The notes beneath the pieces were generated by a model, which ran no database searches, was not told where the DNA came from, and saw only the letters and a program-made list of their open reading frames with translations. 64,000 nt of DNA from Alphaproteobacteria bacterium (GTDB lineage Bacteria > Pseudomonadota > Alphaproteobacteria > Sphingomonadales > Sphingomonadaceae): contig JAHJIJ010000015.1 of assembly GCA_018823325.1 (NCBI GenBank), positions 186,001 through 250,000 of the forward strand, read 5' to 3'. Positions 43,565 to 59,700 of the stretch are shown in pieces. Both the position numbers and the translations under genes were made by a program. How positions within the stretch are numbered: position 1 is the first letter of the stretch; each line of letters begins with the position of its first letter.

Positions 43565-43582
43565 GATTATAGGGATACTGGC

Positions 43583-45751
43583 ATGGCAGAACGGTCTTTC
43601 GCCAAGGAAGTCGAACATCTTCGCCTCGGCGATGGCGAAACATTCAAAGGTGAGGCCATTCTGGCGATCACCAAGGGCCTGTTGCAGGCGGGCGTTTCCT
43701 ATGTCGGTGGCTACCAGGGCTCGCCGATCTCGCACCTGATGGACGTGCTATCCGATGCGCAGGACATTCTCGGCGAGCTGGGCGTCAACTTCCAGAGTTC
43801 GGCGAGTGAAGCGACGGCAGCGGCCATGCTCTCGGCCTCGGTGATGTACCCCCTGCGCGGCGCGGTGGCCTGGAAGTCGACAGTCGGAACCAATGTGGCT
43901 TCGGACGCACTTGCCAATCTTGCTTCGGGTGGCGTGACCGGCGGGGCAATGGTCATCATTGGCGAAGACTATGGCGAAGGCTCCTCGATCATGCAGGAGC
44001 GCACCCACGCCTTCGCAATGAAATCGCAGATGTGGCTGCTTGATCCCCGGCCCGATCACGGCCGGATCGTCGACTTGATCCAGAAGGGCTTCGAACTGTC
44101 CGAGGCTTCAAACACCCCGGTCATGCTCGAAGTGCGGGTCCGCACCTGCCACATGCACGGCAGCTTCGTGTGCAAGGACAATGTCCGCCCGGCCTTCACC
44201 CTGGACGATGCACTGAATACGCCGCGGCGTGATCTCCAGCGGATCGTCCTCCCTCCTGCCGCCTATGAGCATGAGCAGGAAAAGATCCACCACCGCCTGC
44301 CGGCGGCGATCAACTTCATTCGCGAGCAGGGGCTCAATGAGTTCTTCGGCCCGGAACCGGGCACGAACGAGAGCAAGGTTGGAATTATCCTGCAGGGCGG
44401 CATGTATAACAACGTGATCCGCGCACTGCAGTATCTCGGCCTGTCCGACGCTTACGGAGACACGAAGGTTCCGCTCTACGTTCTGAACGTCACCTATCCG
44501 TTGATCGATAGCGAGATTGAGGCGTTCACGCGCGGCAAGGACGCAGTCCTGATGGTTGAGGAAGGTCAGCCGGAGTATCTCGAACAGGCGCTGAATACCA
44601 TCCTGCGCCGGCGCGACGTGGCGACGCGGATTCATGGCAAGGATGTCCTGCCGATGGGCGGCGACTATTCCGTCGAGGCGCTACTCAACGGGTTCGAGAC
44701 GTTTTTCGAGAAAGCCGACCCGCGCGCCCTTGGCAACCGCCCACCCCGTCCCGATGCCCGGCCCGTGCTCGCCCTGCCGCCTGTGGAACGGCTCAAGTCC
44801 GTCGTTCCCGCGCGTCCGCCGGGACTGTGCACCGGATGTCCCGAGCGGCCGATCTTCGCGGCAATGAAGCTGGTGCAGGAGGATCTGGGCGACCACCATG
44901 TTTCAGCTGACATCGGCTGCCACCTGTTCTCCATCCTGCCGCCCTTCAATATCGGCACGACGACAATGGGTTTCGGTCTCGGTGGGGCGTCGGCAGCGGC
45001 GTTCAGCCGCAGCAGCGGCAAGCGCTCGATCGCGGTCATGGGCGATGGCGGCTTCTGGCACAACGGCCTGACCAGCGGGATCGGCAACGCAGTCTACAAC
45101 AAGCATGACGGCGTCTTCCTGATTGTCGACAACTTCTATTCTTCGGCCACCGGCGGGCAGGACATTCTCTCGTCGCGCGCGCCAAACAAGACGCGCAAGA
45201 CCAACAATCCGATCGAGAAGGCCTTACGCGGCGTCGGTGCGACCTGGATCCGCGAAGTCGATCACACCTATGACGTGGGCAAGATGAAGCGCGTGCTGAC
45301 GGAGGCGCTCACCACGAAAGACGAAGGCCCCAAGATCATTATCGCCTCGTCCGAGTGCATGCTCAACAAGCAGCGCCGGGTCCGCCCAATCGAGGCAAAG
45401 GCGGTGCGAGACGGGAAGCGCGTCGTCAAACAACGGTTCGGCGTGGACGAGGATGTCTGCACGGGCGACCATGCCTGTATCCGTTTGTCCGGCTGCCCAT
45501 CTCTGTCGGTCAAACATCTCGACGATCCATTGCGCGACGATCCCGTTGCCGCGATCGACAACAGCTGCGTGGGCTGCGGCAATTGCGGTGAGGTTTCCGA
45601 AGCAGCGGTGCTGTGCCCCTCCTTCTACCGCGCGGATATCATCCATAATCCCAATTGGTGGGATCGGTTCAAGGCCAGGATGGCGCTGTCCCTCATCAAC
45701 TTCCTTCAGGCGCGTCGTGAGCGCGGCCGCTTCATGCTGGAAACAATATGA
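43583..45751 (+). CDS. iorA: Indolepyruvate ferredoxin oxidoreductase, alpha subunit
   Basis: The 722-residue protein is a 2-oxoacid:ferredoxin oxidoreductase alpha subunit of the IorA type. It begins with the pyrimidine domain (YVGGYQGSPISHLMDVLSDA), has GLCTGCPERPIFAAMKL near the middle, the ThDP motif VMGDGGFWHNGLTSGI ending IVDN, and a C-terminal ferredoxin-like part with CTGDHACIRLSGCP and CVGCGNCGEV. These enzymes decarboxylate aryl pyruvates to aryl-acetyl-CoA. AGGGA lies 8 bases before ATG 43583. It overlaps iorB by 4 bp. In an aerobe it probably works on an aromatic 2-oxo acid; exact substrate unknown. Confidence 0.9.
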   Translation: MAERSFAKEVEHLRLGDGETFKGEAILAITKGLLQAGVSYVGGYQGSPISHLMDVLSDAQDILGELGVNFQSSASEATAAAMLSASVMYPLRGAVAWKSTVGTNVASDALANLASGGVTGGAMVIIGEDYGEGSSIMQERTHAFAMKSQMWLLDPRPDHGRIVDLIQKGFELSEASNTPVMLEVRVRTCHMHGSFVCKDNVRPAFTLDDALNTPRRDLQRIVLPPAAYEHEQEKIHHRLPAAINFIREQGLNEFFGPEPGTNESKVGIILQGGMYNNVIRALQYLGLSDAYGDTKVPLYVLNVTYPLIDSEIEAFTRGKDAVLMVEEGQPEYLEQALNTILRRRDVATRIHGKDVLPMGGDYSVEALLNGFETFFEKADPRALGNRPPRPDARPVLALPPVERLKSVVPARPPGLCTGCPERPIFAAMKLVQEDLGDHHVSADIGCHLFSILPPFNIGTTTMGFGLGGASAAAFSRSSGKRSIAVMGDGGFWHNGLTSGIGNAVYNKHDGVFLIVDNFYSSATGGQDILSSRAPNKTRKTNNPIEKALRGVGATWIREVDHTYDVGKMKRVLTEALTTKDEGPKIIIASSECMLNKQRRVRPIEAKAVRDGKRVVKQRFGVDEDVCTGDHACIRLSGCPSLSVKHLDDPLRDDPVAAIDNSCVGCGNCGEVSEAAVLCPSFYRADIIHNPNWWDRFKARMALSLINFLQARRERGRFMLETI

Positions 45752-47313
45752 TGCGCGATGAAACCGTCAAACTCCGCCTCGACCCGGCTGGCGAGGCCAC
45801 CGAGCGCCCGATCTCGATCGCCATTGTAGCAATGGGGGGCCAAGGTGGCGGCGTTCTGACCGGCTGGATCGTCAAGCTGGCCGAAGCAGCCGGCTGGGTC
45901 GCCCAGTCGACCTCCGTGCCCGGCGTTGCGCAGCGCACCGGCGCGACCATCTATTATGTCGAGATGATGCAGCCGAGCGGCGGTCGCCTTCCGATCCTGG
46001 CCCAGATGCCCACACCGGGTGATGTCGACGTTGTTTTAGCATCCGAGTTCATTGAGGCTGGCCGCTCCATCCTGCGCGGCATCGTCACCCCTGACCGTAC
46101 GACGCTGATCGCGTCGAGCCACCGGTCTCTCGCGATTGCGGAGAAGAGCGCCCCGGGCGAAGGCATTGCGGATGACAGTGCCGTGACCGAAGCGATCGGC
46201 ATCACGGCCCGGCGCAGCATCATCTTCGATATGAACGCGCTTGCAACGGCCCATGGCAGCGTCATCTCCTCGGCCATGTTTGGCGCTCTGGCAGCGGCAG
46301 ACGTGCTGCCGTTCCCGGTCGACGCCTATCACGCGGTGATCAAAGGCGAAGGCAAGGGGGGTTCTGCCAGCATCAAGGCCTTCGACGCAGCCTTCGCGCG
46401 GACAGAAGGCAAGACGGACGAAGCCGACGCCGATCCTGCACCGGCCGAACAGGCAACGCCGCTCCGCAGACCCATACCGCCGCGCATCGCTGGCCTGCTT
46501 GATTGCTTGCAGACCGTAATGCCGCCACAGGTCCAGCCGATGGCGCGGGCAGGCCTCGCCAAGGTCATCGATTTTCAGGATGTCGCTTACGGATCACTCT
46601 ACCTGACCAAACTCGAGGAGATCCTCAGGCTGGATGTCGAGCTGGCGGGCGAAAGCAAGGACTTCGCGCTGACGTTCAATGCAGCCAAGTACCTCGCCAA
46701 TGCGATGGCCTATGATGACGTAATCCGGGTCGCCGACCTCAAGACTCGTTCGACACGCCTCCAGCGGATCGGAAAGGAGATCGGCTTGGGCCCGGGCCAG
46801 CTGTTTGAAACCACCGAGTATATGCACCCGCGCATGGAGGAACTGGTCGGCCTGGCCCCGGCTCGCCTTGGCCGCTGGCTCAGGCGGCAGGATCGTCTAT
46901 ACGCTTGGCTCGATCGGCGGATCAGCAAGGGGCGCCGGGTCCGCACTTACTCGCCAGGCTGGTTTCTCGTGCTCTACACCATGGCCGGCCTGCGCCGCTT
47001 TCGCCGCGCGTCGCTACGCCATGCCGAAGAAGCCGCGCACCGCGACGCCTGGCTGACCCTCGCCACCAAGCTCGCCCCGCACAACTATGCGCTCGGCGTT
47101 GAAGTCGTGAAATGTCAGCGACTGATCAAGGGCTATTCCGACACCCACGCGCGCGGCCTCTCCAAATTTGACAGGGCCATGTCCGAAATCCGGCGCCTCG
47201 CGCACCGCGACGATGCTGCGGACTGGGCCCGGCGCCTGCGCGAAACGGCCGTCCGCGATGGCGAAGGGGGAGACTTTGATGGCCTGATCCAGACCATCCG
47301 TTCCGTAGCATGA
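45748..47313 (+). CDS. iorB: Indolepyruvate oxidoreductase beta subunit with DUF6537 extension
   Basis: The first 200 residues are the gamma-type domain of 2-oxoacid oxidoreductases, with IVAMGGQGGGVLTGWIVKLA and SVPGVAQRTGATIYYVEM. The remaining 300 residues are an extra domain found in long bacterial IorB proteins (DUF6537), e.g. VIDFQDVAYGSLYLTKLEEI. Archaeal IorB is only about 200 residues, so this is the long 521-residue form. ATG 45748 overlaps the iorA stop (ATGA). Together with IorA it should form the functional enzyme. No ferredoxin gene is adjacent. Confidence 0.9.
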   Translation: MMRDETVKLRLDPAGEATERPISIAIVAMGGQGGGVLTGWIVKLAEAAGWVAQSTSVPGVAQRTGATIYYVEMMQPSGGRLPILAQMPTPGDVDVVLASEFIEAGRSILRGIVTPDRTTLIASSHRSLAIAEKSAPGEGIADDSAVTEAIGITARRSIIFDMNALATAHGSVISSAMFGALAAADVLPFPVDAYHAVIKGEGKGGSASIKAFDAAFARTEGKTDEADADPAPAEQATPLRRPIPPRIAGLLDCLQTVMPPQVQPMARAGLAKVIDFQDVAYGSLYLTKLEEILRLDVELAGESKDFALTFNAAKYLANAMAYDDVIRVADLKTRSTRLQRIGKEIGLGPGQLFETTEYMHPRMEELVGLAPARLGRWLRRQDRLYAWLDRRISKGRRVRTYSPGWFLVLYTMAGLRRFRRASLRHAEEAAHRDAWLTLATKLAPHNYALGVEVVKCQRLIKGYSDTHARGLSKFDRAMSEIRRLAHRDDAADWARRLRETAVRDGEGGDFDGLIQTIRSVA

Positions 47314-47395
47314 TTGCGCTTGCCCCCTCGTCCGCGAAACCGCATTACGCAGCGAATGTGCGGTGACTTGAAACGAGCTTGGGGATGAGGACTTG

Positions 47396-47896: not shown

Positions 47897-48354
47897 GCCA
47901 GCCCATTCCGCCGCGTTCATATGATGAGCTGGAAAGCTACCTGCCATATCTCGTGAACCGGCTCGCGAACCTCGGGCAAGCGACGCAGAACCGGATGCTG
48001 CACAAGGACGGCATCAATCTCGTCACGCTGCGGGCCTTGTCGATCCTCAATATTGAGGATGGACTGACCATCAACGAGATCGCCGCGCGGACCTTTACCG
48101 AACAGTCGTCGACCAGCCGCGCGATCGAGGCAATGGCGTCCCAAGGCCTGGTTGAACGGCGAATCCCGGAACAGGATCAGCGCCGACGGGAGATCGTTCT
48201 CACCGATAAGGGGCGCGAGCAATTGTTGCAGACCTGGCCGGCAATGAACCATTATTTCGACATGCTGAACGATGGCCTGTCTGCCGCCGAACGCGACATG
48301 TGCCGCAAGGTGCTCACCCGGATGCTCGCGAATCTGACGGAATTGAACGGCTAA
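47893..48354 (+). CDS. MarR-family transcriptional regulator (second of an overlapping pair)
   Basis: The 153-residue protein is a MarR member of a different subgroup: LVTLRALSILNIEDGLTINE, recognition helix region TEQSSTSRAIEAMASQGLV and wing PEQDQRRREIVLTDKGR. ATG 47893 overlaps the upstream MarR stop (ATGA), so both proteins are made from one message in coupled fashion. A heterodimer, or two repressors with different ligands acting on the shared element, are the obvious possibilities. Neither can be chosen from sequence. Confidence 0.9.
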   Translation: MSQPIPPRSYDELESYLPYLVNRLANLGQATQNRMLHKDGINLVTLRALSILNIEDGLTINEIAARTFTEQSSTSRAIEAMASQGLVERRIPEQDQRRREIVLTDKGREQLLQTWPAMNHYFDMLNDGLSAAERDMCRKVLTRMLANLTELNG

Positions 48355-48394
48355 CGATCCGTGCCCGAGGCGCTTGCAGACGAGTTGACAGGAT

Positions 48395-48426
48395 TTAGTT
48401 TACCTATAAATATATGCTGATGCATA
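48395..48426 (+). promoter_or_regulatory. Promoter/operator element of the acyl-CoA synthetase operon
   Basis: TTAGTTTA-N7-ATATATGC-N2-ATGCATA, identical in fixed positions and spacing to the element in front of iorA. The palindromic core is ATATGC-TGAT-GCATAT (48412-48427). A TTGACA box lies at 48385-48390. It immediately follows the MarR pair and precedes the gene at 48476. Confidence 0.75.
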
Positions 48427-48475
48427 TCCTTTTACCGATCTGGCAGAGCCGGACCTATGTAGCTGGCGACTGGCC

Positions 48476-50086
48476 GTGAACGACAATTCGATCTTTGAGC
48501 GCTTCTATGCGACAGCGACGCGCTGGCCGAACCATCCGTTTCTGAATATCCTGCCCGAGACTGCCGGCGTTTACGGTATTCCGGCCGGCGAGATCACTTA
48601 TTCAGACATGCTGGCACGCGTTCTGGAACGCAGCGCAGCGCTTGCCACGGCCGGATATGGCGAAGGCACGAGAGTCGGCCTGCTTCTCCAGAATCGACCG
48701 GAATTCCTGGAGCTCTGGTTCGCGGCAAACAGCCTTGGTGCCTCGGTCGTGCCAATCAATCCCGATCTGCGGCGTAGCGAGCTCGAATATCTGATCGCCC
48801 ATTCGGAGATGTCTGCAGCGTTCGTCGTGCCAGACCGTCTTGCAGACATGTCAGCCGCGGCGATGGCTGTCGGAAGTGTGATGGTCCCGATCACCCCGGA
48901 CCAGCCCGTGCGAACCCTACTCAAAACGGGACGACCCGCATCGAATGATGCCAGTGACCGGGAAGCTGCTCTGCTCTATACGTCCGGCACGACCGGCGCG
49001 CCCAAAGGCTGCGTGCTGACGAATGAGTATTTCCTGCATTCGGGCGACTGGTATCGTGACGTGGGCGGACTGATCAGCCTGCGCGAAGGCATGGAGCGGA
49101 TGCTCACGCCGCTGCCGGTGTTCCACATGAACGCCATGGCCGTGTCAGTGATGGCCATGGTCACGACAGGCGGATGCCTCACCCTCCTCGACCGGTTTCA
49201 TCCATCGACATGGTGGGATTCGGTGAGGCGCAGCCAGGCGACTTGCCTGCACTATCTGGGCGTGATGCCGGCGTTGCTCATGAAGGCACCGGCCGACCCG
49301 CAGGACCGTGACCACGCGGTGCGCTTCGGTTTCGGTGCGGGCGCCTCCGCGGAACTACACGCCCCCTTTGAGCAGCGCTTCGGCTTTCCACTGATTGAGG
49401 CGTGGGCGATGACGGAAACTGGCAGCGGCGGCGTGATCAGTGCGCACCGCGAACCGCGCAAAATCGGCACCCACTGTTTCGGACGGCCCACTGAGGATGT
49501 CGAGGTCCGGATTGTCGACGACTCCGGTGCCGACGCCGACGACGGCAAGCCGGGTGAGTTATTGGTGCGCCGCGCCGGGGCCAATCCCCGCTACGGATTC
49601 TTCCGCGAGTATCTGAAAGATCCGGCGGCGACCGACGAGGCCTGGGAAGGCGGCTGGTTCCACACCGGGGACATTGTCGCTCGTGATGCGGATGGCGACC
49701 TGCACTTCGTTGATCGCAAGAAGAACGTGATCCGTCGCTCAGGCGAGAATATCGCTGCAGTTGAGGTGGAAACGATTCTGGCCAAGCACCCCGCGATCCG
49801 CCAGGTAGCAGTGGCGGCGACACCTGATCCGGTGCGTGGCGACGAGGTCGTGGCACTCGTGGTCACTGGTAGTGAGCAAGCCGAAGCCGATATCGCGGCG
49901 AACATCGCTCGCTGGGGGCTGGATGAAATGGCCTACTACAAGGTCCCGGGCTGGATCGGCTTCGTCAAGGAACTGCCGCGCACGCCCACGGAGAAAATCC
50001 TGCGCGCTGCTCTCAAGGACCTTGTGGCGCAGCAGATGGCCGCAGGCGCGCTCCATGATACACGCTCCTTCAAGAAACGGAGCTGA
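48476..50086 (+). CDS. AMP-dependent acyl-CoA synthetase/ligase
   Basis: The 536-residue protein is an ANL-family adenylating enzyme. The phosphate loop is LLYTSGTTGAPKGCVLTN, the A5-type motif EAWAMTETGSGG, the hinge region GWFHTGDIVARDADGDLHFVDRKKNV and the C-terminal catalytic lysine in LPRTPTEKILRAAL. It activates a carboxylic acid to its CoA thioester, probably an aryl or alicyclic acid; it is close to crotonobetaine/carnitine-CoA ligase-type members. The start GTG 48476 has only a weak ribosome site. It overlaps the thiolase-like gene by 1 bp, so it heads a four-gene operon under the shared operator. Confidence 0.9.
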   Translation: MNDNSIFERFYATATRWPNHPFLNILPETAGVYGIPAGEITYSDMLARVLERSAALATAGYGEGTRVGLLLQNRPEFLELWFAANSLGASVVPINPDLRRSELEYLIAHSEMSAAFVVPDRLADMSAAAMAVGSVMVPITPDQPVRTLLKTGRPASNDASDREAALLYTSGTTGAPKGCVLTNEYFLHSGDWYRDVGGLISLREGMERMLTPLPVFHMNAMAVSVMAMVTTGGCLTLLDRFHPSTWWDSVRRSQATCLHYLGVMPALLMKAPADPQDRDHAVRFGFGAGASAELHAPFEQRFGFPLIEAWAMTETGSGGVISAHREPRKIGTHCFGRPTEDVEVRIVDDSGADADDGKPGELLVRRAGANPRYGFFREYLKDPAATDEAWEGGWFHTGDIVARDADGDLHFVDRKKNVIRRSGENIAAVEVETILAKHPAIRQVAVAATPDPVRGDEVVALVVTGSEQAEADIAANIARWGLDEMAYYKVPGWIGFVKELPRTPTEKILRAALKDLVAQQMAAGALHDTRSFKKRS

Positions 50087-51258
50087 TGAGCCGCCGCCCG
50101 GCCTCCTATGACGGCGTCGCTGTCTGCGCTCCGGTCACGGTGCCTTATGTCCGGTTCTCGCCGGAAGATGCGCACTGGTGGGCTGGTCGGGCGTTGCGGC
50201 TTCTCGCGCAGCATGCCCAAATCACGCCTGCGGATATTGACGGATTTTGCTTCTCCAGCTTTTCTGCCGGCCCTGATACAGCCGTCGGGCTGACCCAGCA
50301 TCTGGGCCTTTCACCCCGCTGGCTGGATCATATCCCAACCGGCGGCGCCAGCGGCGTGATGGCGTTGCGCCGCGCCGCACGCGCAGTGCAGTGCGGTGAT
50401 GCAGAGATCGTCGTCTGCCTGGCTGCCGATACCAACCATATCGACAGCTTTCGTCGTAGCCTCGCAAGCTTTTCGCGATTCTCTCGGGATGCCGTCTATC
50501 CTTATGGATATGGCGGCCCGAATGCCACTTTCGCGCTCATTACCGACGCATATATGCGCCGCTTCGGTATCACGCGCGCCGATTTCGGCAAGCTGTGCGT
50601 CGCCCAGCGCGCGAATGCTGGGTCGAACCCGCTGGCTCTGCAACGCAAGCCCCTCACGCTTGAAGCCTATCTGGCAGCGCGACCGATCGCGGACCCTGTC
50701 CACCTGTTCGATTGCGTGATGCCCTGCGCCGGGGCCGAAGCCTTCATCGTCACCACGCCGGAGATTGCTGCCCAGCGCGGGCTGGCGGCAGCCACGATCA
50801 TGGCGACTATCGAGCGTCACAACGCTCTCCCTGGAGATCCCGTGCAGTTTCGCGGGGGATGGGCAATGGACATCGACGGATTTTGGGATGCTGCAGGCAT
50901 CGCGCCCACTGATATCGACACGCTGCAGGTCTATGATGATTATCCGGTCATCGTAGCGATGCAGCTTGAGGATTTGGGCTTCTGCCGCAAGGGGGAAGCC
51001 GCACAATTCATCCGCAAGACCAGCTTCGACATTGCTGGCGATCTGCCGCTCAATACCAATGGCGGCCAGCTTTCTGCTGGGCAGGCGGGTGCGGCCGGCG
51101 GCTTCCAGAACGTGACCGAGGGTCTGCGCCAGATCATTGGACAACCGCTCGGCGCACAAGTGCCGGGCGCTGAGATATCGCTCGTCTCCGGATTCGGGCT
51201 GGTCAATTATGATCGTGGTGTGTGCACCGGCGCCGCTGCCTTGAAGGCCCTGCGATGA
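50086..51258 (+). CDS. Thiolase-fold lipid-transfer/aldolase-like protein without nucleophile Cys
   Basis: The 390-residue protein has the SCP2-thiolase fold, but the nucleophile site reads IPTGGASGVMAL where thiolases have a Cys before ASG. The GHPxGxTG motif near the C-terminus reads NGGQLSAGQAGAAGG, losing the His. This is the pattern of the Ltp2-type group, where a thiolase-like subunit with a DUF35 partner performs retro-aldol cleavage of a beta-hydroxyacyl-CoA side chain. The next gene does encode a DUF35 domain, and the genes overlap as ATGA. A retro-aldolase acting on a CoA ester made by the upstream ligase is a reasonable inference. Confidence 0.85.
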   Translation: MSRRPASYDGVAVCAPVTVPYVRFSPEDAHWWAGRALRLLAQHAQITPADIDGFCFSSFSAGPDTAVGLTQHLGLSPRWLDHIPTGGASGVMALRRAARAVQCGDAEIVVCLAADTNHIDSFRRSLASFSRFSRDAVYPYGYGGPNATFALITDAYMRRFGITRADFGKLCVAQRANAGSNPLALQRKPLTLEAYLAARPIADPVHLFDCVMPCAGAEAFIVTTPEIAAQRGLAAATIMATIERHNALPGDPVQFRGGWAMDIDGFWDAAGIAPTDIDTLQVYDDYPVIVAMQLEDLGFCRKGEAAQFIRKTSFDIAGDLPLNTNGGQLSAGQAGAAGGFQNVTEGLRQIIGQPLGAQVPGAEISLVSGFGLVNYDRGVCTGAAALKALR

Positions 51259-52469
51259 CAGAGCGCGCACCCCGAGAAAGACGCGATCCGCTGGCTCGCA
51301 AGAAAGCGCGGCACACGCCGCCATCGGCGCGCAGCCGGGCTATGCACGCCATGTCCGCTCGCGCCGCGATGGGCCGCTTCGTGCTACAAGTCTGCACAAA
51401 GTGTGGCACGGCGACCTATCCCCCGCGTGATGCCTGCCCAGCCTGCTGGGGCGAGCTCGTCTGGCAGGATTGCAAAAGTGGCGGTCAGTTGCTGGCCAAC
51501 ACCATAATCCACGCCACGACCGATCTCTATTTCCGCGATCATCTGCCCTGGCGCATGGGCACCGTGGCGCTTGATGCGGGGCCGGTGGCGCTGGTTCATC
51601 TGCACCGCGACCTCGCCCCGGAGGACCGGGTCGAAGTTCGCCTCATGCTCGACAGGGGCGGAAATGCCGCCCTCTTCGCGCTCCCGCCTGATAGGGGTTT
51701 CGACATGACCGATCCGCAACTGCGCGAGTTCATCGTGCCCGTGCAAGGCAAGACCGTGCTCGTCACCGATGCTCACAGCGCTATCGGCCTCGCTGTGGTC
51801 AAGGCGCTGCACGATACCGGCGCAGGGCTGATCGTCGCGGGCATGCTACCACCCGCCCGCCTCGCTGACGCCGATCATCCCGTGCTGCGCCTGCTCGGCG
51901 TGCAAGTGGTGCCACTCGACAGCAGCGATCAGGTCAGCTTGTCTGAGGCGCTCAGCAAGATTGGCGGGCCGCTCGACATCGTCATCAACACCGCGCGCCA
52001 TGTGCGCAGCGGAGGCGTGAGTGGGGGGACGAATATCGTCGAGCAGCGCCGCGCGTTCGAAGTCGCGGCGATTGGCCTCACGCGGCTAGCGCAAAGCTGC
52101 GGCCCGATGCTGGCTGGCCGACCGCACGGCGCCTTCGTGGACGTTATCTCCAGTGATGCACTGACCGGCTCCGCAGGCCATGCAGGCTTCGCCGCAGCCG
52201 AGGCAGCACGTCTTTCGCTTCTGCAGGCCTTCCGCCACGAAATGCGGGAAACGGGCGTACGTGTGCTGTCGGTCTTCACCGGCCCGGTTGAGGATGAGCA
52301 TCACCAAAGCGTACCGCCGCCAAAAGTAGCCCCGGCCCGGCTTGCAACCGCCATTATCGAAGCCCTGCAACAGGGACGCGAACAAACCTGCGTTGGAGAT
52401 GTGGCCAGCGACGCGATGACGCGCTGGCTAGCTGACCCGGCGCTCTATGCAAGGGAGAAGAACCTGTGA
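51255..52469 (+). CDS. DUF35 OB-fold/zinc-ribbon domain fused to a degenerate SDR domain
   Basis: Residues about 45-155 are a DUF35 unit: a rubredoxin-like zinc ribbon with CTKCGTATYPPRDACPACWG and an OB fold. Residues about 165-400 are an SDR fold. In the latter the cofactor loop reads TDAHSAIG instead of TGxxxGIG and the active site GFAAAEAARLSLLQ has Phe for Tyr and Glu for Lys, so catalysis is unlikely. ATG 51255 overlaps the thiolase-like stop. The DUF35 part should bind the thiolase-like partner; the SDR part may be structural or bind acyl-CoA. I know of no standard family with this fusion. The first 40 residues are Arg-rich and polar. Confidence 0.82.
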   Translation: MTERAPRERRDPLARKKARHTPPSARSRAMHAMSARAAMGRFVLQVCTKCGTATYPPRDACPACWGELVWQDCKSGGQLLANTIIHATTDLYFRDHLPWRMGTVALDAGPVALVHLHRDLAPEDRVEVRLMLDRGGNAALFALPPDRGFDMTDPQLREFIVPVQGKTVLVTDAHSAIGLAVVKALHDTGAGLIVAGMLPPARLADADHPVLRLLGVQVVPLDSSDQVSLSEALSKIGGPLDIVINTARHVRSGGVSGGTNIVEQRRAFEVAAIGLTRLAQSCGPMLAGRPHGAFVDVISSDALTGSAGHAGFAAAEAARLSLLQAFRHEMRETGVRVLSVFTGPVEDEHHQSVPPPKVAPARLATAIIEALQQGREQTCVGDVASDAMTRWLADPALYAREKNL

Positions 52470-53266
52470 CTGTCACCGCCAATCAGGCACTCTCCGCGAT
52501 GCTTGCCGGCATTGCCGGCGGCACGATCCGTGCGATCGACCTGACCAACATCTTGTCCAGCGATTTTCCGGTTATCGTCCTGCCATCCGAGTTCGGCCAG
52601 TGCGAACCGTTCCGGATGGAAACGGTCTCCCGCTACGATGCCAATGGTCCGGCATGGTACTGGAACAATATTTCCATGAACGAGCATACCGGAACCCATT
52701 TCGATGCTCCGGCCCATTGGGTCACGGGGCGAGACGTTGCCAACGGGACAGTCGATGCCATCCCGCCGGAGGACTTCCTTCATCCCGCGGTCGTGATCGA
52801 CATCACGCGTGAAGCTGCCGAAGATGAGGACTTCATCGTCACGCGCGGCTTTCTGGAAGCTTGGGAAGCTGCCAACGGCCCGATTCCTTCGCGCCACTGG
52901 ATCCTGCTGCGTTCGGATTGGTCGAAGCGGGTCGGCACCCTGTCCTACCTCAATCTCAAGGACGACGGCGCCCATTCACCCGGGCCGGATGCTGACGCCA
53001 TGCGCTTTCTGGTCCATGAGCGCGATTGCGTCGGACTGGGCGTCGAGACGGTGGGGACCGATGCCGGGCAGGCGAGCTTGTTCGACGAACCGCTCCCGGC
53101 GCATTCAATTCTCCACGGCAACGGGCGCTACGGCTTGCAGTGCCTCACCGGTCTCGATCAGTTGCCGGTCTTCGGCTCGGTCATCATCGCCATGCCGCTC
53201 AAGATCAAGGGCGGTTCGGGCAGCCCATTGCGCGTGATGGCCCTGGCCCCGGCGGGCTCGGATTGA
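52466..53266 (+). CDS. Cyclase family metal hydrolase (kynurenine formamidase/isatin hydrolase-like)
   Basis: The 266-residue protein has the cyclase fold of PF04199 with the metal motif EHTGTHFDAPAHW (H-x-G-T-H-x-D-x-P-x-H). Named members hydrolyse N-formylkynurenine, isatin or cyclic amides, using Mn or Zn. GTG 52466 overlaps the preceding stop (GTGA) and GGGAG lies 8 bases upstream. It ends the operon that begins with the acyl-CoA synthetase. Together with iorAB this could point to an indole or tryptophan derivative as pathway substrate, but that link is inference. Confidence 0.85.
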   Translation: MTVTANQALSAMLAGIAGGTIRAIDLTNILSSDFPVIVLPSEFGQCEPFRMETVSRYDANGPAWYWNNISMNEHTGTHFDAPAHWVTGRDVANGTVDAIPPEDFLHPAVVIDITREAAEDEDFIVTRGFLEAWEAANGPIPSRHWILLRSDWSKRVGTLSYLNLKDDGAHSPGPDADAMRFLVHERDCVGLGVETVGTDAGQASLFDEPLPAHSILHGNGRYGLQCLTGLDQLPVFGSVIIAMPLKIKGGSGSPLRVMALAPAGSD

Positions 53267-53412
53267 TTACGTCAAAGACAGCATACAGGCCAAGGTTGGC
53301 CGAAAATACAAACTAGTACGCCACCAGCGCAATACCGACAGGCGAATGAATCGTCATTGATCGGATTGGAGCAACACAACGCGTACGGTAAGGTGAGGAT
53401 GGCGCAGAAAGC

Positions 53413-54918
53413 ATGAGCACGCGCGTACATGACGCACAGTCCCAAGGCGGACTGCTGAGCGGTGTCCTGGGCACCGGCGATATCATCTTCATGATTCTTG
53501 CCTGCGCCGCGCCGATGGGCGTGTTGGCCGGAATTATCCCCCTCGCGCTGGCCTTCGGCAATGGTGCGGGCGTGCCCGGAACCCAGCTGGTCGTTTGCCT
53601 CATCATGATGCTGTTCGCGATGGGCTATGTCCGCATGATCCCGCACGTGCGCAACGCCGGCGCCTTCTATGCCTACATCGCGCTCAGCATGAACAAGGAA
53701 GCCGGCATCGCCGCTGCTTATGTCGCGGTGACAGCCTACATCTGCGCTGCAGCGTCCGTGCTCGGAGCTATGGCCTATTTCGCGTCCGACCTGCTGCAAA
53801 GTGCCTTCGATCTATCGACTCGTTGGGAGATCTGGGCGGGGCTCGGCATCCTGGCCATTGCCTGGCTCGGCTATCACAAGATCACTCTGGCAGCCAAAGT
53901 GCTGGCCGTGGCCCTGCTCCTCGAAGTCGGGCTTATCCTGCTGATCGACGCCCTCATCCTCTACAATGTCGGATTCTCCGGCCTCGATTTCTCAAGTTTC
54001 ACACCAGATACGATCCTCGCGCCCGGACTGGGCATTGCCCTGATCTACGCCATAAACGGCTGCATCGGCTTCGAGGCCACGGCCATCTATCAGGAAGAAG
54101 CGCGTGATCGCAAAAAGACGATTCCACGGGCCACCTATGGCGCGGTGATCGTGCTGGGCACCTTCTATGTGCTGTCATCCTGGTGCCTGGTGCTGGCCCT
54201 CTCCCCTGAGAAGGCGCAAGAGATTGCCGCAGCCGATCCCGGGCGGCTGGTGACCGGAATCGCGATGGAATATCTCGGCCAATTCGGTCGCGATGCACTC
54301 AACCTGCTGACAGTAACGAGTCTGTTCGCTGCGGCGCTCGGGTTCTTCAACAATATTTCCCGCTACTTGTTTGCGCTCTCTCGAGATGGCCTTATGCCGG
54401 CGGTGCTCGGCCGCATCCACGTCCGCCACGGATCGCCCTATGCCGCCTGCCTGCTGCTGACGGTCGTCCTGACCGTCATCATCGGCCTCTTCGCTTTGGC
54501 CGGCCTCGATCCGTTGCTCAGTCTCGTCACCAGCCTTTCGTCGATGGGTGCGGTGGGTCTGGAAATCCTGCTCGCCACCACATCGCTCTCCATCCCGTTC
54601 TATTTTGCGCGGAGAGGCGAAATCTCGTTCGGCACATTCTGGGCGCCCCTCTCGGCGGGCATTGCCATCGCCGTGATGACCTATCTGTCGCTGGCAAATT
54701 ACTCGGCCTTGACCGGCACAGACATCGCCCTGGTCAACCGCCTACCGTTCATCTTCCTTGGCCTTGTGGCAATCGGCTTGCTGCACGGGCTTTGGCTGCG
54801 CAAGTACCGCCCTCTCACCTACGCCCAGGTCGGCTCTACTCACGTCGAGGGAGAGCTTCCTCCTCCTCCTCCGATGTCTGAGCCGGGCCCTAACGGCGTA
54901 GCAACCCAGCTTGGATAA
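53413..54918 (+). CDS. APC-family amino acid/amine permease
   Basis: The 501-residue protein has about 12 transmembrane segments, starting GTGDIIFMILACAAPMGVLAG, and follows the APC superfamily pattern seen in amino acid and amine carriers, including GCIGFEATAIYQEEARD in the middle. The C-terminus is a Pro-rich cytosolic tail (PPPPPMSEPGP). The ribosome site before ATG 53413 is weak. It is followed after 4 bp by an aldehyde dehydrogenase gene and belongs to a group that resembles aromatic-amine degradation, so import of an amine such as tyramine is a reasonable expectation. Confidence 0.88.
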   Translation: MSTRVHDAQSQGGLLSGVLGTGDIIFMILACAAPMGVLAGIIPLALAFGNGAGVPGTQLVVCLIMMLFAMGYVRMIPHVRNAGAFYAYIALSMNKEAGIAAAYVAVTAYICAAASVLGAMAYFASDLLQSAFDLSTRWEIWAGLGILAIAWLGYHKITLAAKVLAVALLLEVGLILLIDALILYNVGFSGLDFSSFTPDTILAPGLGIALIYAINGCIGFEATAIYQEEARDRKKTIPRATYGAVIVLGTFYVLSSWCLVLALSPEKAQEIAAADPGRLVTGIAMEYLGQFGRDALNLLTVTSLFAAALGFFNNISRYLFALSRDGLMPAVLGRIHVRHGSPYAACLLLTVVLTVIIGLFALAGLDPLLSLVTSLSSMGAVGLEILLATTSLSIPFYFARRGEISFGTFWAPLSAGIAIAVMTYLSLANYSALTGTDIALVNRLPFIFLGLVAIGLLHGLWLRKYRPLTYAQVGSTHVEGELPPPPPMSEPGPNGVATQLG

Positions 54919-54922
54919 CGCC

Positions 54923-56443
54923 ATGTCCCACCACACTGCCTCCATCGCCGGGATCCCGGCAATCACGCTCCCCAGCGGACGGCTTTTGCTGGACGGCGAA
55001 CTGGTCGAGCCATGCAACCCGGCTCGGACCATCGATGCGATCGATCCGACAACCGGCACCCGGATCATGTCGTTCCCGGCCTGCGGCCGCGAGGACGTCG
55101 AGCGGGCGGTTCAATCCGCTCATCGCTGTTTCGAAAGCAAGGCGTGGCAAGGGATGCGTCCGCTCGATCGAGGGCGGTTGCTGGAAAACCTCGCGTTGCT
55201 GGTCGAACGTCACCGCGATGACCTTGCCGCTCTCGAATCGCTCGACAGCGGCAAGCTTCTTGCCGTGACCAGCGCGATCGATCTTCAATTCACGATTGAC
55301 GGATTGCGCTACTTCGCGGGCTGGGCGTCCAAGATCAACGGCGAGTATGTGACCCACAACCCGCTGGTGCCCGAAAATGCCGTTTACCGCGCCTACACCC
55401 AGCGTCGCCCGATTGGCGTCACCGGCGGGATTACGCCGTGGAATTTTCCGATCGGCCAGGCGATTCAGAAAATCGCTCCGGCAATAGCGTTCGGCTGCAC
55501 GGTCGTTCTCAAACCGTCCGAGGAAAGTTCACTCACCGCGCTGCGGCTGGGCGAATTGATCGCGGAGGCGGGCTTCCCCGCCGGTGCCGTCAATATCGTC
55601 ACCGGATATGGGGCCGATGCCGGCACCGCGCTGGTTGAACACCCGCTGGTTCGCAAGATCGCGTTCACCGGATCGACGGCAACGGGCCAGAGCATTCTGG
55701 CGGCATCTGCCGCGACAATGAAGCGCGTCACGCTGGAGCTGGGCGGCAAGTCGCCGACGATCATTCTGGCCGATGCCGACCTCGATCGCGCCATTCCCGG
55801 CGCCGCCGCCGCAATTTTCTCGAACTCGGGCCAGATCTGCACCGCCGGCTCCCGCTTGCTGGTGGAAGATGCGGTCTATGACCGGGTTATGGACGGCGTG
55901 GCGCAGATCGCCAGTGCGCTGCGGCTTGGCTCTCCGTTCGATCAGGCAACGCAGATCGGCCCTCTCATCTCGATGCGGCAGCGCGAACGCGTGAGCAGTC
56001 TGGTCGATGCGGGCGTCGCCGAGGGAGCCCAGATCGTTGCGGGTGGCACAGCGGGCGAGGGCGCCGGCTGGCATTACCGCCCAACCGTGCTGGCAAACGT
56101 CACGCCTGACATGACCGTGATGCGGGAGGAAATCTTCGGGCCGGTCGTCTGCGCGACACGCATTACCGATCGCGCCCAGATCGTGCCGCTAGCCAATGAC
56201 ACGCCCTTCGGCCTCGCCGCCAGCATCTGGACCCGCAATCTTGACCATGCTCATCTGCTGGCAGAGCGGATCGAAGCTGGAACGGTGTGGCTGAACACGC
56301 ACAATGTGCTCGATCTTGCCATGCCGTTCGGGGGCAGCAAGTTGTCCGGTCTCGGCCGCGAGTTCGGCAGCGAGGCTGTCCATGCCTTCACTGAACCCAA
56401 GGCGGTCTGCATGCGGCTTGAGGGCGCCGACGACTTCGGCTGA
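54923..56443 (+). CDS. Aldehyde dehydrogenase (phenylacetaldehyde/betaine-type)
   Basis: The 506-residue protein is an NAD-dependent aldehyde dehydrogenase with glutamate in LELGGKSPTIIL, nucleophile in NSGQICTAGSRLL and PFGGSKLSGLGREFG near the end. ATG 54923 was preferred to a TTG at 54911 that overlaps the permease stop. In the amine-degradation context it would oxidise the aldehyde formed by the FAD oxidase encoded convergently at 56507. It is similar in layout, but not closely, to the two other dehydrogenases in the window (5119 and 12821). Confidence 0.9.
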   Translation: MSHHTASIAGIPAITLPSGRLLLDGELVEPCNPARTIDAIDPTTGTRIMSFPACGREDVERAVQSAHRCFESKAWQGMRPLDRGRLLENLALLVERHRDDLAALESLDSGKLLAVTSAIDLQFTIDGLRYFAGWASKINGEYVTHNPLVPENAVYRAYTQRRPIGVTGGITPWNFPIGQAIQKIAPAIAFGCTVVLKPSEESSLTALRLGELIAEAGFPAGAVNIVTGYGADAGTALVEHPLVRKIAFTGSTATGQSILAASAATMKRVTLELGGKSPTIILADADLDRAIPGAAAAIFSNSGQICTAGSRLLVEDAVYDRVMDGVAQIASALRLGSPFDQATQIGPLISMRQRERVSSLVDAGVAEGAQIVAGGTAGEGAGWHYRPTVLANVTPDMTVMREEIFGPVVCATRITDRAQIVPLANDTPFGLAASIWTRNLDHAHLLAERIEAGTVWLNTHNVLDLAMPFGGSKLSGLGREFGSEAVHAFTEPKAVCMRLEGADDFG

Positions 56444-56506
56444 CCGGGTTCTGGAGATGACCCGACATCCGCGTTCGCAACCACGTCGGCTGCGGCACGC
56501 GCTGAG

Positions 56507-57799
56507 TCAGAAGCGATCCAGTCGATAAGGGGTCGGGTCGATGGCGGGCGTCTTGCCCATCACCAGATCCGCGGTCAGCTCGCCTGCGGCAGGTCCCGTT
56601 CCGAAGCCGTGACCGGAAAAGCCGGTCGCCAACGTCAGATTGGGCAAGCGAGCCACCGAGCCGATCACCGGCATCGAATCCGGCGTCACGTCGATCATCC
56701 CGCCCCATTCCTGCGCGATCCTGGCCTTGGCGAACACCGGCCAGGCCGCGATGAGGTTGCGCATCGCTTCCTCATTGAGCGCATGATTGACGGGCGGATC
56801 CATTGTGCGGATCTTCTCGAAGGGCGAGGTCTGGTCCGCCTTCCAGCGACGCGGCAAAGCCAGGTCTGCGAAAAACTCACGTCCCAACGACACGCGCAAA
56901 TTGCGCCACTGCGCAATCAACGTAGGCAGATAGTCCATGCCGATGAGGAGGTGATCCAGCGTCAGTGGCGCAAACAAGGCACCTCGCTGGGTGATGGTAT
57001 AGCCGCCATCCAGCCGCTTGCGGAAGGAGAAGTCAGCGCCACCTACGGCGCAATCGGTTGGCCCGTCCATCGGCTCGGTGCGCAGCACCGCAGCGACGAG
57101 CGGCAGGGTCAAAAGCTTCACGCCATGATTGGCCAGGAAACGGCGCGACCAGACGCCACCGGCCAGCACCACTTGCGAACAGCGGATTTCCCCTTGCTCG
57201 GTCACCACCCCGCAGACCGCACCGCCCGATGTCTCCAGCGTACGGACCGCGCAGTTCTCGACGATCACGGCCCCCTTTGCCATCGCAGCCTTGGCGATCG
57301 CGCTCGATGCCAGCGTCGGCTCGGCCCGGCCATCGGACGGGGTCACGATCCCACCCACCCATGTACCGGTGCTGCCGGGCACAAGCTCCGCGATCTGCCC
57401 GGGCGTCAACATGCGCGAATCCAGCCCGGAGCCCTTCACCGTCTCCAGCCAGCTCTCATAAACAGCGAGCTCCTTGTCCGTGCGTGCGACATAAGCGATG
57501 CCAGCCTGGCGGAAGCCGCAATCATCGCCGGTCCGCTGCGGCATCTGGGACCAGAGCCGCTCGGCCGCCTGCGCCATCGGCAGATCGACAGGCGGACGCA
57601 TCACTTTGCGCACCCAGCCAAGGTTGCGCGACGATTGCTCACCCGCGATGCGCCCCTTCTCGATCACCACGACAGGCACGCCCCGTTCAGCAAGGCACAG
57701 GGCGGTCGACAGCCCGACAATGCCCCCGCCGATCACCACGACAGTGGTTTCCTTCGGCAGCACGGCGGAGGTTTCGACGGGAACGATCGTGGGAGCCAT
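56507..57799 (-). CDS. FAD-dependent amine/D-amino acid oxidase (DAO family)
   Basis: The 430-residue protein belongs to the DAO family. The dinucleotide site is TVVVIGGGIVGLSTALCLAE, followed by EQSSRNLGWVRK, a version of the covalent or near-covalent FAD region of glycine oxidase and gamma-glutamylputrescine oxidase. The C-terminus has GFSGHGFGTGPAAGELTADL. It would oxidise an amine or secondary amino acid to an imine and pass electrons to O2 or the quinone pool. ATG 57799 was chosen over 57847 because AAGG lies upstream. RidA and an ornithine-cyclodeaminase-family gene lie just upstream in the same orientation, consistent with imine handling. Confidence 0.87.
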   Translation of the reverse strand: MAPTIVPVETSAVLPKETTVVVIGGGIVGLSTALCLAERGVPVVVIEKGRIAGEQSSRNLGWVRKVMRPPVDLPMAQAAERLWSQMPQRTGDDCGFRQAGIAYVARTDKELAVYESWLETVKGSGLDSRMLTPGQIAELVPGSTGTWVGGIVTPSDGRAEPTLASSAIAKAAMAKGAVIVENCAVRTLETSGGAVCGVVTEQGEIRCSQVVLAGGVWSRRFLANHGVKLLTLPLVAAVLRTEPMDGPTDCAVGGADFSFRKRLDGGYTITQRGALFAPLTLDHLLIGMDYLPTLIAQWRNLRVSLGREFFADLALPRRWKADQTSPFEKIRTMDPPVNHALNEEAMRNLIAAWPVFAKARIAQEWGGMIDVTPDSMPVIGSVARLPNLTLATGFSGHGFGTGPAAGELTADLVMGKTPAIDPTPYRLDRF

Positions 57800-57847
57800 A
57801 AAACAGGACCTTATAAAAGGACGTAAGCGGCCAGCATGCCGCCGCAA

Positions 57848-58270
57848 CTACAGCGAGATAAGCAGCTCCTTGACCGCGGCTTTGGACACGCCGCGAATGG
57901 CGATGACATCGATCTCGACCTTGTACTGGGCCGAGCCCAGCGGCGGGCAAGTCATGGTCAGCGTCGGATTGATGCCGCGCATGCGATTCCCGTAGGTTTC
58001 CATGATCGTTTCGATGTCTTCCGGAAACTGGACGAAGACACGGGCTGACACCACGTCCTCCAACACCGCATCGACTGCGGCCAGTGCTGAAGCAATGTTG
58101 TCGAGCACCTGATTGGTCTGCTCGGCCAGATCCTCGGGGATCAGCTTGGTGCGTGGATTGCGCCCGGCAGTGTTGGAGACGAAGATCATGTTGTCCACAG
58201 CGACAAGCCGCGAATAAGAGCCATGTTCCTCAAACTTGTTGCCGGTTTTTACCTTGATGACGTCTGGCAT
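57848..58270 (-). CDS. RidA family protein (enamine/imine deaminase)
   Basis: The 140-residue protein has the RidA/YjgF trimer fold: GSYSRLVAVDNMIFVSNTAG at the front, LDNIASALAAVDAVLEDVVSARVFV, and GSAQYKVEIDVIAI at the end. The active-site Arg of classical RidA normally in the sequence before CPP-like text is not present as usual: here the stretch is PTLTMTCPPLG. RidA proteins hydrolyse reactive enamines and imines released by PLP or FAD enzymes. It lies 48 bp before the FAD oxidase gene, so clearing the imine product is its probable job. Confidence 0.88.
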   Translation of the reverse strand: MPDVIKVKTGNKFEEHGSYSRLVAVDNMIFVSNTAGRNPRTKLIPEDLAEQTNQVLDNIASALAAVDAVLEDVVSARVFVQFPEDIETIMETYGNRMRGINPTLTMTCPPLGSAQYKVEIDVIAIRGVSKAAVKELLISL

Positions 58271-58322
58271 GGGGCCTCGCTGGTGAAATGGGAGGGGGTT
58301 CGAGAGTTAAGGGAGGTACGGG

Positions 58323-59525
58323 CTATCTGAGCGCCGGCACGTCCCAGAGGTTCAGTTTGACGCCGATGTCGTTCGCGATTGCATTGCGATAGACCATGGT
58401 GCCCCAGGCGACGTCCTCGACTGCCATGCCGCCGACGGAGAGGATGATGATCTCATCATCGTTGCGCCGCGCCGGAGCGTCGCCCGAAACGATCGCCCCG
58501 AGATCCTCAAGCGCGTCGCGCGATAGCTTGCCTTCCTCGACCAGGTCGAAGTAGCGCACGCCCACCGCTGGCACATGGTTGTGACGCGGCGCCGGCAATT
58601 CCTCGAGATAGGCCTCGTAAAGCCCCGTGAAATCCAGAACCTTGCGGATATCGGGCGCCTGCATGCCTTCGTCTATGTTGCACGGGGCCGGCATCGAAAG
58701 GAACGTGCCGGGCCGCACCCATTCGCGGCGCACGGTTGGGTATTTCGATGGATCGCCGGTCGCGACGGAGGCGCAGAAGGTGGCGATATCCGAATCGCGC
58801 ACGACCTCTTCGTCCGTTTCGACCACGCGCACCGTCGTGATTTGCGGGTAGGTTTCCGCAATCCATGCCTTGAACGCGTCCAGATTGGCTTGCCCCCGCC
58901 CCCTGATCTTGACCGTATCGATCAACGGGCAGGCGCCCATGAACGCGGCGAGCGAGGTACGGGCCATGACGCCCGGCCCGACGATGCCGACGACACGGGA
59001 ATCCTTGCGCGCCAGATAGCGCGCGCCGACACCCGGTACGGCGCCCGTGCGATAGGCCGAAAGCAGATTTGCCGACATCAGTGCCAGTGGCGCGCCGGTA
59101 TCGGCATCGTTCAGGATGAAAGTGAGGATCGAGCGCGGCAAGTCCTTGTCGCGGTTTTCCGTGTTGGAGCCGTACCACTTCATGCCGGCTGTCCGGAATG
59201 ACCCGCCGAGATACGCGGGCATCGCCATGAAACGGCGGTCAGTGGTCGGTTTCGGCATATCCGGAAACGGCGAATTCTCGGGGAACATGATGATCGCGCC
59301 GTGGGAATTATTGTTGCCGCCGGCCATGCGGTAGTCGCCGACATGGAGCAGGCGGAACATTTCCTCCATGGCGTCGACACACTGGGCCATGTCGGTGACA
59401 CCGGCCCGGATCATGTCCGGCTCCGACAGATAGATGAAGTCGATCCGGGGGAGCGCCGCCAGACGCTGCGCCGCCACCTTGTCATTTTCGGACAGCCCTG
59501 CCCGCTTCTCCATGGAAGGAGCCAT
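58323..59525 (-). CDS. Ornithine cyclodeaminase/mu-crystallin family protein (tyramine oxidase subunit B-like)
   Basis: The 400-residue protein has the OCD/mu-crystallin Rossmann fold: VVGIVGPGVMARTSLAAFMG for NAD(P), SANLLSAYRTGAVPGVGARYL before it. It is about 50-70 residues longer than usual OCD proteins. Long members adjacent to FAD oxidase and RidA genes are labelled tyramine oxidase subunit B in some databases, although their reaction is poorly defined; ketimine reduction is another possibility. GGGGA lies 7 bases before ATG 59525. It is divergent from an AraC regulator and heads the three-gene minus-strand group. Confidence 0.82.
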   Translation of the reverse strand: MAPSMEKRAGLSENDKVAAQRLAALPRIDFIYLSEPDMIRAGVTDMAQCVDAMEEMFRLLHVGDYRMAGGNNNSHGAIIMFPENSPFPDMPKPTTDRRFMAMPAYLGGSFRTAGMKWYGSNTENRDKDLPRSILTFILNDADTGAPLALMSANLLSAYRTGAVPGVGARYLARKDSRVVGIVGPGVMARTSLAAFMGACPLIDTVKIRGRGQANLDAFKAWIAETYPQITTVRVVETDEEVVRDSDIATFCASVATGDPSKYPTVRREWVRPGTFLSMPAPCNIDEGMQAPDIRKVLDFTGLYEAYLEELPAPRHNHVPAVGVRYFDLVEEGKLSRDALEDLGAIVSGDAPARRNDDEIIILSVGGMAVEDVAWGTMVYRNAIANDIGVKLNLWDVPALR

Positions 59526-59700
59526 CAGGCTATCCCCGTTTGTCTTCTGCACAGGCACCTCTCTCTTCGCCGGCGGCACCGACGATTGTGTTTCGTCGCA
59601 CCCCGGCAATCGTCCTTGCGGTTTCGACGGCCCCACTCCGCGAGTAAATTGCATCTAGGGATTGACCGTTTGCATAATCGGCCATTAGCTTCGTCCGATT
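59526..59700. promoter_or_regulatory. Divergent promoter region, OCD operon / AraC regulator
   Basis: The 175-bp gap separates two divergent genes. It has no clear inverted repeat; the likely promoter area is 59655-59695, where TTGCATAATCGGCCATTAGC is found. AraC proteins bind direct repeats, which I could not identify here. Confidence 0.4.

Follow-up and report, generated by a model that had tools for sequence, protein, structure and literature searches.

The gene pair described here resembles a small group of thiolase-fold aldolases that act with a DUF35 partner. The closest of these is CtSal-CtShy(DUF35), the bile acid aldolase of Comamonas testosteroni (PDB 9MYR), which releases acetyl-coenzyme A (acetyl-CoA) by a retro-aldol reaction (PMC12329534, PMC11321319). 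In CtSal the catalytic pair is described as Tyr302 and Cys304 of a YDCY motif, with a Gly at the position of the thiolase nucleophile Cys, while in TcLtp2, the catalytic residues are Tyr294 of a YDHF motif and Tyr344 (PMC12329534). By gene order, the pair also recalls the auxin-degradation locus of Variovorax, iadC-D-E-F-G-H-I-J, in which IadG and IadH were inferred from annotation to be a ketothiolase and an alcohol dehydrogenase, respectively (PMC12633357). The stretch that was analyzed, hereafter the window, comprises 64,000 nucleotides from an alphaproteobacterium of the family Sphingomonadaceae (contig JAHJIJ010000015.1, positions 186,001 to 250,000), and it encodes an IadG-like thiolase-fold protein of 390 residues (50086..51258, + strand), proposed here as a retro-aldolase subunit, followed by an IadH-like protein of 404 residues (51255..52469, + strand) in which a DUF35 domain is fused to a short-chain dehydrogenase/reductase (SDR) fold. 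In our view, the two proteins probably form a DUF35-dependent retro-aldolase of an iad-type indole-3-acetic acid route, in which the SDR half is inert.

The IadG-like protein matches Pfam Thiolase_C_1 with 109.7 bits, and, as the initial annotation of this DNA had recognized, it lacks both the nucleophile Cys and the GHP histidine. GGASG stands where the loop with the Cys would be, and NTNGGQLSAGQ occupies the GHP region, such that the two residues characteristic of thiolases (EC 2.3.1.9 and 2.3.1.16) are absent. Gly86 and Gly87 of the replaced loop (GGAS, residues 86-89; 50341..50352, + strand) are invariant in all 29 proteins of the alignment (A2). By sequence and by fold, the closest match in the PDB is CtSal-Shy(DUF35) (9myr; 28% identity), the latter comparison having been made with a predicted model (predicted local distance difference test, pLDDT, 85.7; predicted template modelling score, pTM, 0.89). 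Tyr283 of the YDDY motif (residues 283-286; 50932..50943, + strand) aligns with the catalytic Tyr302 of CtSal and Tyr294 of TcLtp2, and Asp285 aligns with Cys304 and the His, respectively. Similarly, Gln328 and Gln333 (GGQLSAGQ; 51067..51084, + strand) are the counterparts by alignment of Gln347 and Gln352 from CtSal. The YDDY motif and both glutamines are invariant in 29 of 29 proteins, and YDDY recurs at all 17 of the IadG loci L088-L104, 11 of which are genes outside the 29-protein set. Because the VIA-align structural alignment yields ranges instead of residue pairs, the active-site register was taken from the sequence alignment combined with predicted secondary structure.

The window pair therefore shares with CtSal a Cys-less thiolase fold, a neighboring gene for a four-Cys DUF35 zinc-ribbon/OB protein, the Tyr of the YDxF/Y motif, and two glutamines. 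The differences are that CtSal has an essential Cys304, a MaoC hydratase on the DUF35 chain and a steroid substrate, whereas the window pair has Asp285, a dead SDR and a probable oxindole substrate. TcLtp2-ChsH2(DUF35), the steroid aldolase of Thermomonospora curvata (PDB 6OK1), likewise differs in pairing YDHF with Tyr344 as the acid, where the window has YDDY and Gln, and in carrying MaoC instead of SDR as its inert partner domain. Since Asp285 replaces the Cys or His, the IadG-like protein is classed as working like Sal and Ltp2 while being a member of neither, and the alignment favors a mechanism like that of Sal in which the acid has been exchanged. The initial annotation had proposed an Ltp2-ChsH2-type steroid aldolase. 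The aldolase part of that proposal is borne out by the Cys-less thiolase with its DUF35 partner and by 9myr as the best match, but the likely substrate is dioxindole-3-acetyl-CoA instead of a steroid. Steroid side-chain degradation was rejected, as no hydratase gene adjoins the window pair and the isatin hydrolase encoded downstream indicates an oxindole. Should the retro-aldolase assignment be true, a clade with a Tyr-Asp motif would be added to these aldolases. The ipf genes for ibuprofen degradation also include those with ligase and Rieske roles, and IpfE is a DUF35 protein. The thiolase-like protein and partner encoded by ipfD and ipfE, in an operon whose pathway releases propionyl-CoA from ibuprofen (PMC9195938), are likened to the window pair by description only.

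PhlC-type and related thiolases catalyze their reactions through a reactive Cys. Their fold is common to PhlC, benzoylsuccinyl-CoA thiolase and the acetoacetyl-CoA thiolase of the HMG-CoA synthase complex, all of which have DUF35-type partners (PMC12329534), and the window pair might on these grounds be taken for an acyltransferase of the PhlABC type or a Claisen-type thiolase. This is highly improbable, however, given that the loop here is GGASG and that the next gene appears to handle isatin, a retro-aldol product.

The DUF35-SDR gene is joined to the thiolase-like gene by an ATGA overlap, and the open reading frame (ORF) list shows the two to form a tight operon. As originally annotated, this overlapping gene carries a DUF35 domain (residues ~40-143; 51372..51683, + strand), which consists of a zinc ribbon with Cys47, Cys50, Cys61 and Cys64 (Pfam zf-ChsH2, residues 40-67, 44.0 bits against a cut-off of 23.2) and an OB fold (OB_ChsH2_C, residues 70-129, 25.1 bits, slightly below the cut-off of 27.1). 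The SDR-fold half (residues ~162-404; 51738..52466, + strand) matches adh_short over residues 166-352 with 60.5 bits and retains Ser299 and Asn245, but the cofactor and catalytic motifs have been lost, again in agreement with the original reading: the glycine motif is changed to TDAHSAIG (T171-D172...A176-I-G178; 51765..51788, + strand), and Phe312 and Glu316 occupy the positions of the catalytic Tyr and Lys (52188..52202, + strand). The protein thus has the fold of a classical SDR oxidoreductase with neither TGxxxGxG nor YxxxK. A structure-based alignment, which had been named as the check that could overturn this claim, restores no active-site residue: when the SDR half of the predicted model is overlaid on 5u4s, 236 of 237 residues fit at 1.5 Å; Phe312 and Glu316 lie where helix F begins, Phe312 being 13 residues past Ser299. 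As Tyr398 is the sole Tyr of the SDR half, there is no neighboring Tyr able to restore the motif. The 50 matches listed in a fold search with the fusion model are of SDR type and fall on the C-terminal half; the assignment of the DUF35 half rests on sequence.

A domain search and count of such fusions, also suggested at the outset, returned both zf-ChsH2 and adh_short (E<=0.01) in 34 of 34 proteins (set A1). All four zinc-ligand cysteines are present in every one of the 34, and the first and second glycines of TGxxxGxG are both lost in every one. This census omits L062 (Azospirillum), whose C-terminal ORF end is unclean, and L063 (Paroceanicella), which is divergent and without isatin hydrolase, both of which also lack the first glycine in a 29-row survey; L073, at a contig end, yielded no fusion sequence. 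Furthermore, the SDR half is under purifying selection, and on the basis of the 34 loci, the overlapping genes and this selection, a frameshift or an accidental DUF35-SDR pairing was rejected. The fusion is therefore real and its motif loss exceeds chance, but it is not the one-off that it first seemed, as full-length relatives occur in other genomes and plasmids. Judged by its residues, the SDR half is a pseudoenzyme that is conserved and widespread, not a singular novelty, and it looks inactive. Next to the MaoC domain of ChsH2, it would be another type of inert domain attached to a DUF35 aldolase partner.

The nearest relatives of the fused SDR by profile, tree and fold are PRK08264-type standalone SDRs and 5u4s, in which the glycine motif is intact, whereas in the fused half it is lost. 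In the tree, the 34 fused SDRs group beside L012/L015-type SDRs (99/96), and away from IadJ and the operonic SDRs, for which reason the possibility that the fused SDR is the operon's own dehydrogenase was rejected. L012 and L015 themselves keep the Tyr and Lys that are mostly lost in the fused half. The NADP-bound 5u4s protein from Burkholderia cenocepacia has a Leu at the catalytic Tyr position, and loss of this Tyr may therefore predate the fusion in the SDR subfamily.

In several genomes of the taxonomic order to which the window's organism belongs, the clusters L075-L079 run ligase - thiolase - standalone DUF35 - IadJ-like SDR - Rieske alpha - beta, with no SDR on the DUF35 protein; L079 additionally carries isatin hydrolase and IorA/IorB. 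Since the SDR half is missing from these related clusters, it appears to be an add-on. Its most likely role would be in assembly or docking. A somewhat unlikely alternative is that it is a binding module that holds CoA, isatin or another metabolite, and thereby feeds the isatin hydrolase or tunes the aldolase. The purifying selection would fit such a module, as would the conserved stretch after strand 6 (residues 343-359, mean conservation 0.74), though the core strands 1, 4 and 5 score higher (0.77-0.88), and conserved core positions are equally compatible with a purely structural role. There is a precedent in the inert MaoC domain on the ChsH2 DUF35 chain, which is reported to bind steroid rings (PMC11321319), yet the related clusters lack any SDR half. 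More doubtful still is the elaborate version, in which a Tyr-Asp retro-aldolase works within a channelling complex of the F, G, H and I proteins, and the inert SDR binds isatin or its CoA precursor and passes it to the isatin hydrolase.

The link to the iad genes comes from related operons. Operons with the order reductase - Rieske alpha - Rieske beta - CoA ligase - thiolase - fusion - cyclase - second SDR occur in Ruegeria pomeroyi, Sulfitobacter, Labrenzia and Paracoccus, and an AMP-binding gene occupies the ligase slot in the first three. Locus L054 has the iad-type order plus IorA/IorB and the same DUF35-SDR fusion, and the Rieske alpha of this locus scores 986 bits against the solved IadD (7yls, 9o71), with 437 of 437 residues covered, compared with 539 bits for that of Ruegeria. 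The shared operon order and the IadD match thus mark the window pair as apparent homologues of IadG and IadH, by way of the L054 and Ruegeria loci and not by direct comparison with the CL14 IadG and IadH sequences. The window has the ligase-thiolase-DUF35/SDR-cyclase order and gene families of iadF-G-H-I from Variovorax paradoxus CL14/CL014 (PMC12633357, PMC9613470, PMC10374108), but not the iadC, iadD, iadE and iadJ genes that complete the Variovorax operon. Fragmentary iad-like clusters were already reported from Sphingomonas and Sphingopyxis (PMC11630574).

In the published scheme, IadG as ketothiolase and IadH as an active alcohol dehydrogenase act with IadF to remove the acetyl side chain reductively, giving C8H7NO2 (PMC12633357). 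According to the same paper, this compound builds up in the iadI deletion and in an iadCDEFGH_JK2 expression strain, and deletion of IadH reduces anthranilate. We nevertheless regard the scheme as quite unlikely. The IadG family has neither the nucleophile Cys loop nor the GHP histidine, both glycines are gone from all 34 IadH-type fusions and the full Tyr-Lys pair from 33 of 34, and the complete-looking L079 cluster has DUF35 alone; moreover, the iadH deletion phenotype is also expected if the DUF35 half alone matters. The side-chain removal step has so far been assigned from annotation only. The main text of PMC12633357 contains neither "DUF35" nor "aldol", and a literature search, with most subscription journals outside its coverage, found no paper that calls IadG or IadH an aldolase or notes the DUF35 domain.

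Knock-outs of iadF, iadG, iadH or iadI were reported to lower anthranilate and to accumulate C10H9NO4, named there as dioxindole-3-acetic acid (PMC12633357). C8H7NO3 was also detected there, with tandem mass spectrometry excluding N-formylanthranilate; its formula fits isatinate. This is the compound expected from the product of the next gene (52466..53266, + strand), which starts in a GTGA overlap with the fusion gene. While Pfam labels it a "cyclase" (PF04199), the protein matches isatin hydrolase A (5nnb) over residues 8-261 with 353 bits (phmmer, E=1e-104), and the Labrenzia cyclase matches it over 257 of 257 residues (E=5.5e-176). It is thus an IadI-like member of the isatin hydrolase family by sequence, with the corresponding activity presumed. 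Its identification as kynurenine formamidase was rejected, as those enzymes match at E>=6e-6 only, versus 1e-104.

Among 396 genomes of the order, all 18 with IadG (E<=1e-90) have an isatin hydrolase (E<=1e-60) somewhere in the genome, compared with 44 of the 378 others (Fisher p=3e-16, uncorrected for relatedness). The IadG limit was chosen after the search, where the E-values jump from 7e-97 to 1e-62; with 1e-60 as the limit, 18 of 20 genomes have isatin hydrolase. The two genomes gained, G171 and G273, which are counted in the 378, have an approximately 1e-62 match to a paralogue with YDDF and GGCSP and no isatin hydrolase match. Such thiolase-like paralogues, with 38-39% identity, YDDF, and GGCSP or GGSSP loops, are found at L105, L106 and L109, the last of these in the window's own genome (C4:18185-19231), where an isatin hydrolase match is present. 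Five of the 18 IadG genomes have the fusion, 11 have DUF35 matches in ORFs of 109-200 residues, and two show no DUF35 match in the short stretch examined. The aldolase genes therefore accompany isatin hydrolase with or without the SDR half. If IadG-IadH is a retro-aldolase, the side-chain step would be redox-neutral and would yield isatin directly, which would explain why isatin hydrolase regularly accompanies IadG. The stretches at the loci L067-L072 and L074 are too short to reveal whether an isatin hydrolase gene lies nearby.

In the reaction sequence that we propose, the IadF-like ligase would convert dioxindole-3-acetic acid (3-hydroxy-2-oxindole-3-acetic acid) into its CoA thioester. By analogy with the aligned CtSal and Ltp2 residues, Tyr283 of the IadG-like subunit would then accept the proton of the C3-hydroxyl, the C-C bond would be cleaved to give isatin and the enolate of acetyl-CoA, and Asp285, at the position of Cys304 and held with Gln328 and Gln333, would reprotonate the enolate. 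Within the IadH-like subunit, DUF35 would serve IadG as a structural partner in the manner of Sal and Ltp2, and the SDR half, its motifs being lost, would carry out no redox chemistry. The isatin hydrolase would convert isatin to isatinate, an arylglyoxylate that IorA/IorB might decarboxylate oxidatively to anthraniloyl-CoA.

Several observations weigh against this proposal. The third residue of YDxY is Asp in all 29 proteins, neither the Cys of Sal nor the His of Ltp2, and Cys304 of CtSal was reported not to be replaceable by Ala, Ser or His (PMC12329534). In Ltp2-ChsH2, the DUF35 domain is described as apparently unimportant for activity (PMC11321319), and the DUF35 half alone may thus be insufficient to account for the iadH phenotype. 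The catalytic pair is also not lost throughout the IadH family, as Tyr is present in 7 of 34 proteins, Lys in 8 of 34, and both in one, L069. Two IadG loci, L103 and L104, have no DUF35 match within ~1.5 kb on each side, and the fusion loci L038 and L063 have no isatin hydrolase within the stretch examined. The window cluster lacks iadCDE and iadJ, and the two Rieske alphas of its own genome, one of which resembles benzoate/anthranilate dioxygenase, have only 29-31% identity to Ruegeria IadD, leaving no close IadD. Finally, the C8H7NO2 of the iadI mutant has two hydrogens more than isatin, C8H5NO2 (PMC12633357), and a retro-aldol reaction thus requires a further step to be assumed, in which another enzyme reduces isatin to dioxindole. 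Downstream intermediates are reported to keep four deuteriums (PMC12633357), which agrees with, and does not demonstrate, reduction of isatin after cleavage. An origin of C8H7NO2 by retro-aldol cleavage of the unoxidized C10H11NO4 was rejected because it predicts five deuteriums, and it is on this count that the later reduction is preferred.

The absence of iadCDE and iadJ, together with the distant Rieske alphas, implies that the window's substrate may be an already oxidized indole compound, which may enter the route through the permease and amine-oxidase genes. That the window variant applies the same aldolase to another, pre-oxidized 3-hydroxy-oxindole, for example from oxidized tryptophan or tryptamine, is a tentative possibility to which we give slightly less than an even chance. 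The block from IorAB to the OCD-family gene, made up of IorAB, MarR, the F, G and H genes, permease, aldehyde dehydrogenase, the flavin adenine dinucleotide (FAD) oxidase (DAO), RidA and OCD, is common to L002-L005 and is mostly kept in L038 and Shinella L059; the stretches examined contain no Rieske genes, and the Rieske alphas of the window's genome are not IadD-like. On the other hand, the first oxidation is possibly encoded elsewhere in the genome, where the search covered PF00848 oxygenases only. The neighboring FAD oxidase, RidA and OCD genes suggest an amine or amino acid as the entry substrate.

If the retro-aldolase assignment is true, the seemingly dead SDR half would alter how the published auxin-degradation pathway is drawn, a pathway that is currently introduced into root bacteria by engineering in order to control auxin (PMC12633357). 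The distribution of the fusion is patchy: full-length copies are found in 1 of 15 genomes examined from the genus (the window's own) and 5 of 396 from the order, and the 3.88-Mb genome itself has one zf-ChsH2 match, the fusion. Of 81 matching plasmid records, 34 cover at least 80% of the fusion; of 35 fusion matches in the plasmid records listed, 30 are annotated as a plain SDR oxidoreductase and 5 have no listed gene. On the Novosphingobium humi plasmid (L038), the F, G and H genes stand with the amine-oxidase block and without isatin hydrolase in 25 kb, and the isatin hydrolase slot holds other genes, including a TonB-receptor-like ORF. In Sulfitobacter THAF37 (L037, 9529-11129), a second thiolase, 56% identical to that of the window, has a standalone OB-fold/DUF35 gene close downstream of the fusion-type operon.

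The window pair lies within a block, 41335-60789, whose order is kept in four genomes (L002-L005): Sphingobium sp. CECT 9361, a Parasphingorhabdus metagenome-assembled genome, Aurantiacibacter xanthus, and Novosphingobium cyanobacteriorum, in the last across most of the block, as its locus begins later. The IadF-like acyl-CoA ligase (48476..50086, + strand, 536 residues; Pfam AMP-binding, 214.7 bits) overlaps the IadG-like start with its stop codon at 50086. Upstream are genes for an IorA-like 2-oxoacid:ferredoxin oxidoreductase alpha subunit (43583..45751, + strand; TIGR03336, 275.8 bits, not reaching the cut-off of 650.9), an IorB-like beta subunit (45748..47313, + strand; PRK08312, 681.5 bits, above cut-off) and two MarR-family regulators (47393-47896 and 47893-48354, + strand). 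IorA/IorB also share a locus with the aldolase genes in L054, L061, L078 and L079, together with the isatin hydrolase gene in L054, L061 and L079, and the end of IorB is seen in L059. The remainder of the block, within 53413..60789, encodes an amino acid permease, an aldehyde dehydrogenase and an AraC regulator, as well as, on the - strand, the FAD amine/amino-acid oxidase, RidA and the OCD-family protein. These last three (56507-59654, - strand) adjoin the cluster in both the window and Shinella L059, and the OCD-family protein exceeds the cut-off of the "tyramine oxidase subunit B" model.

Further from the cluster, the window contains an HsaA-like flavin monooxygenase subunit (20243-21457, - strand; 361.8 bits against a cut-off of 450) and a 534-residue protein (8038-9642, - strand) that may be a benzoylformate-decarboxylase-like enzyme. 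The latter has weak, partial similarity (26%) to a thiamine-pyrophosphate enzyme encoded next to cluster L060 of Agrobacterium. Elsewhere in the same genome (L042; C5:14556-15137 region), a Rieske alpha scores 423 bits with the benzoate 1,2-dioxygenase model and 318 bits with the anthranilate 1,2-dioxygenase model, both below cut-off, and this oxygenase may serve in the further breakdown of anthranilate.

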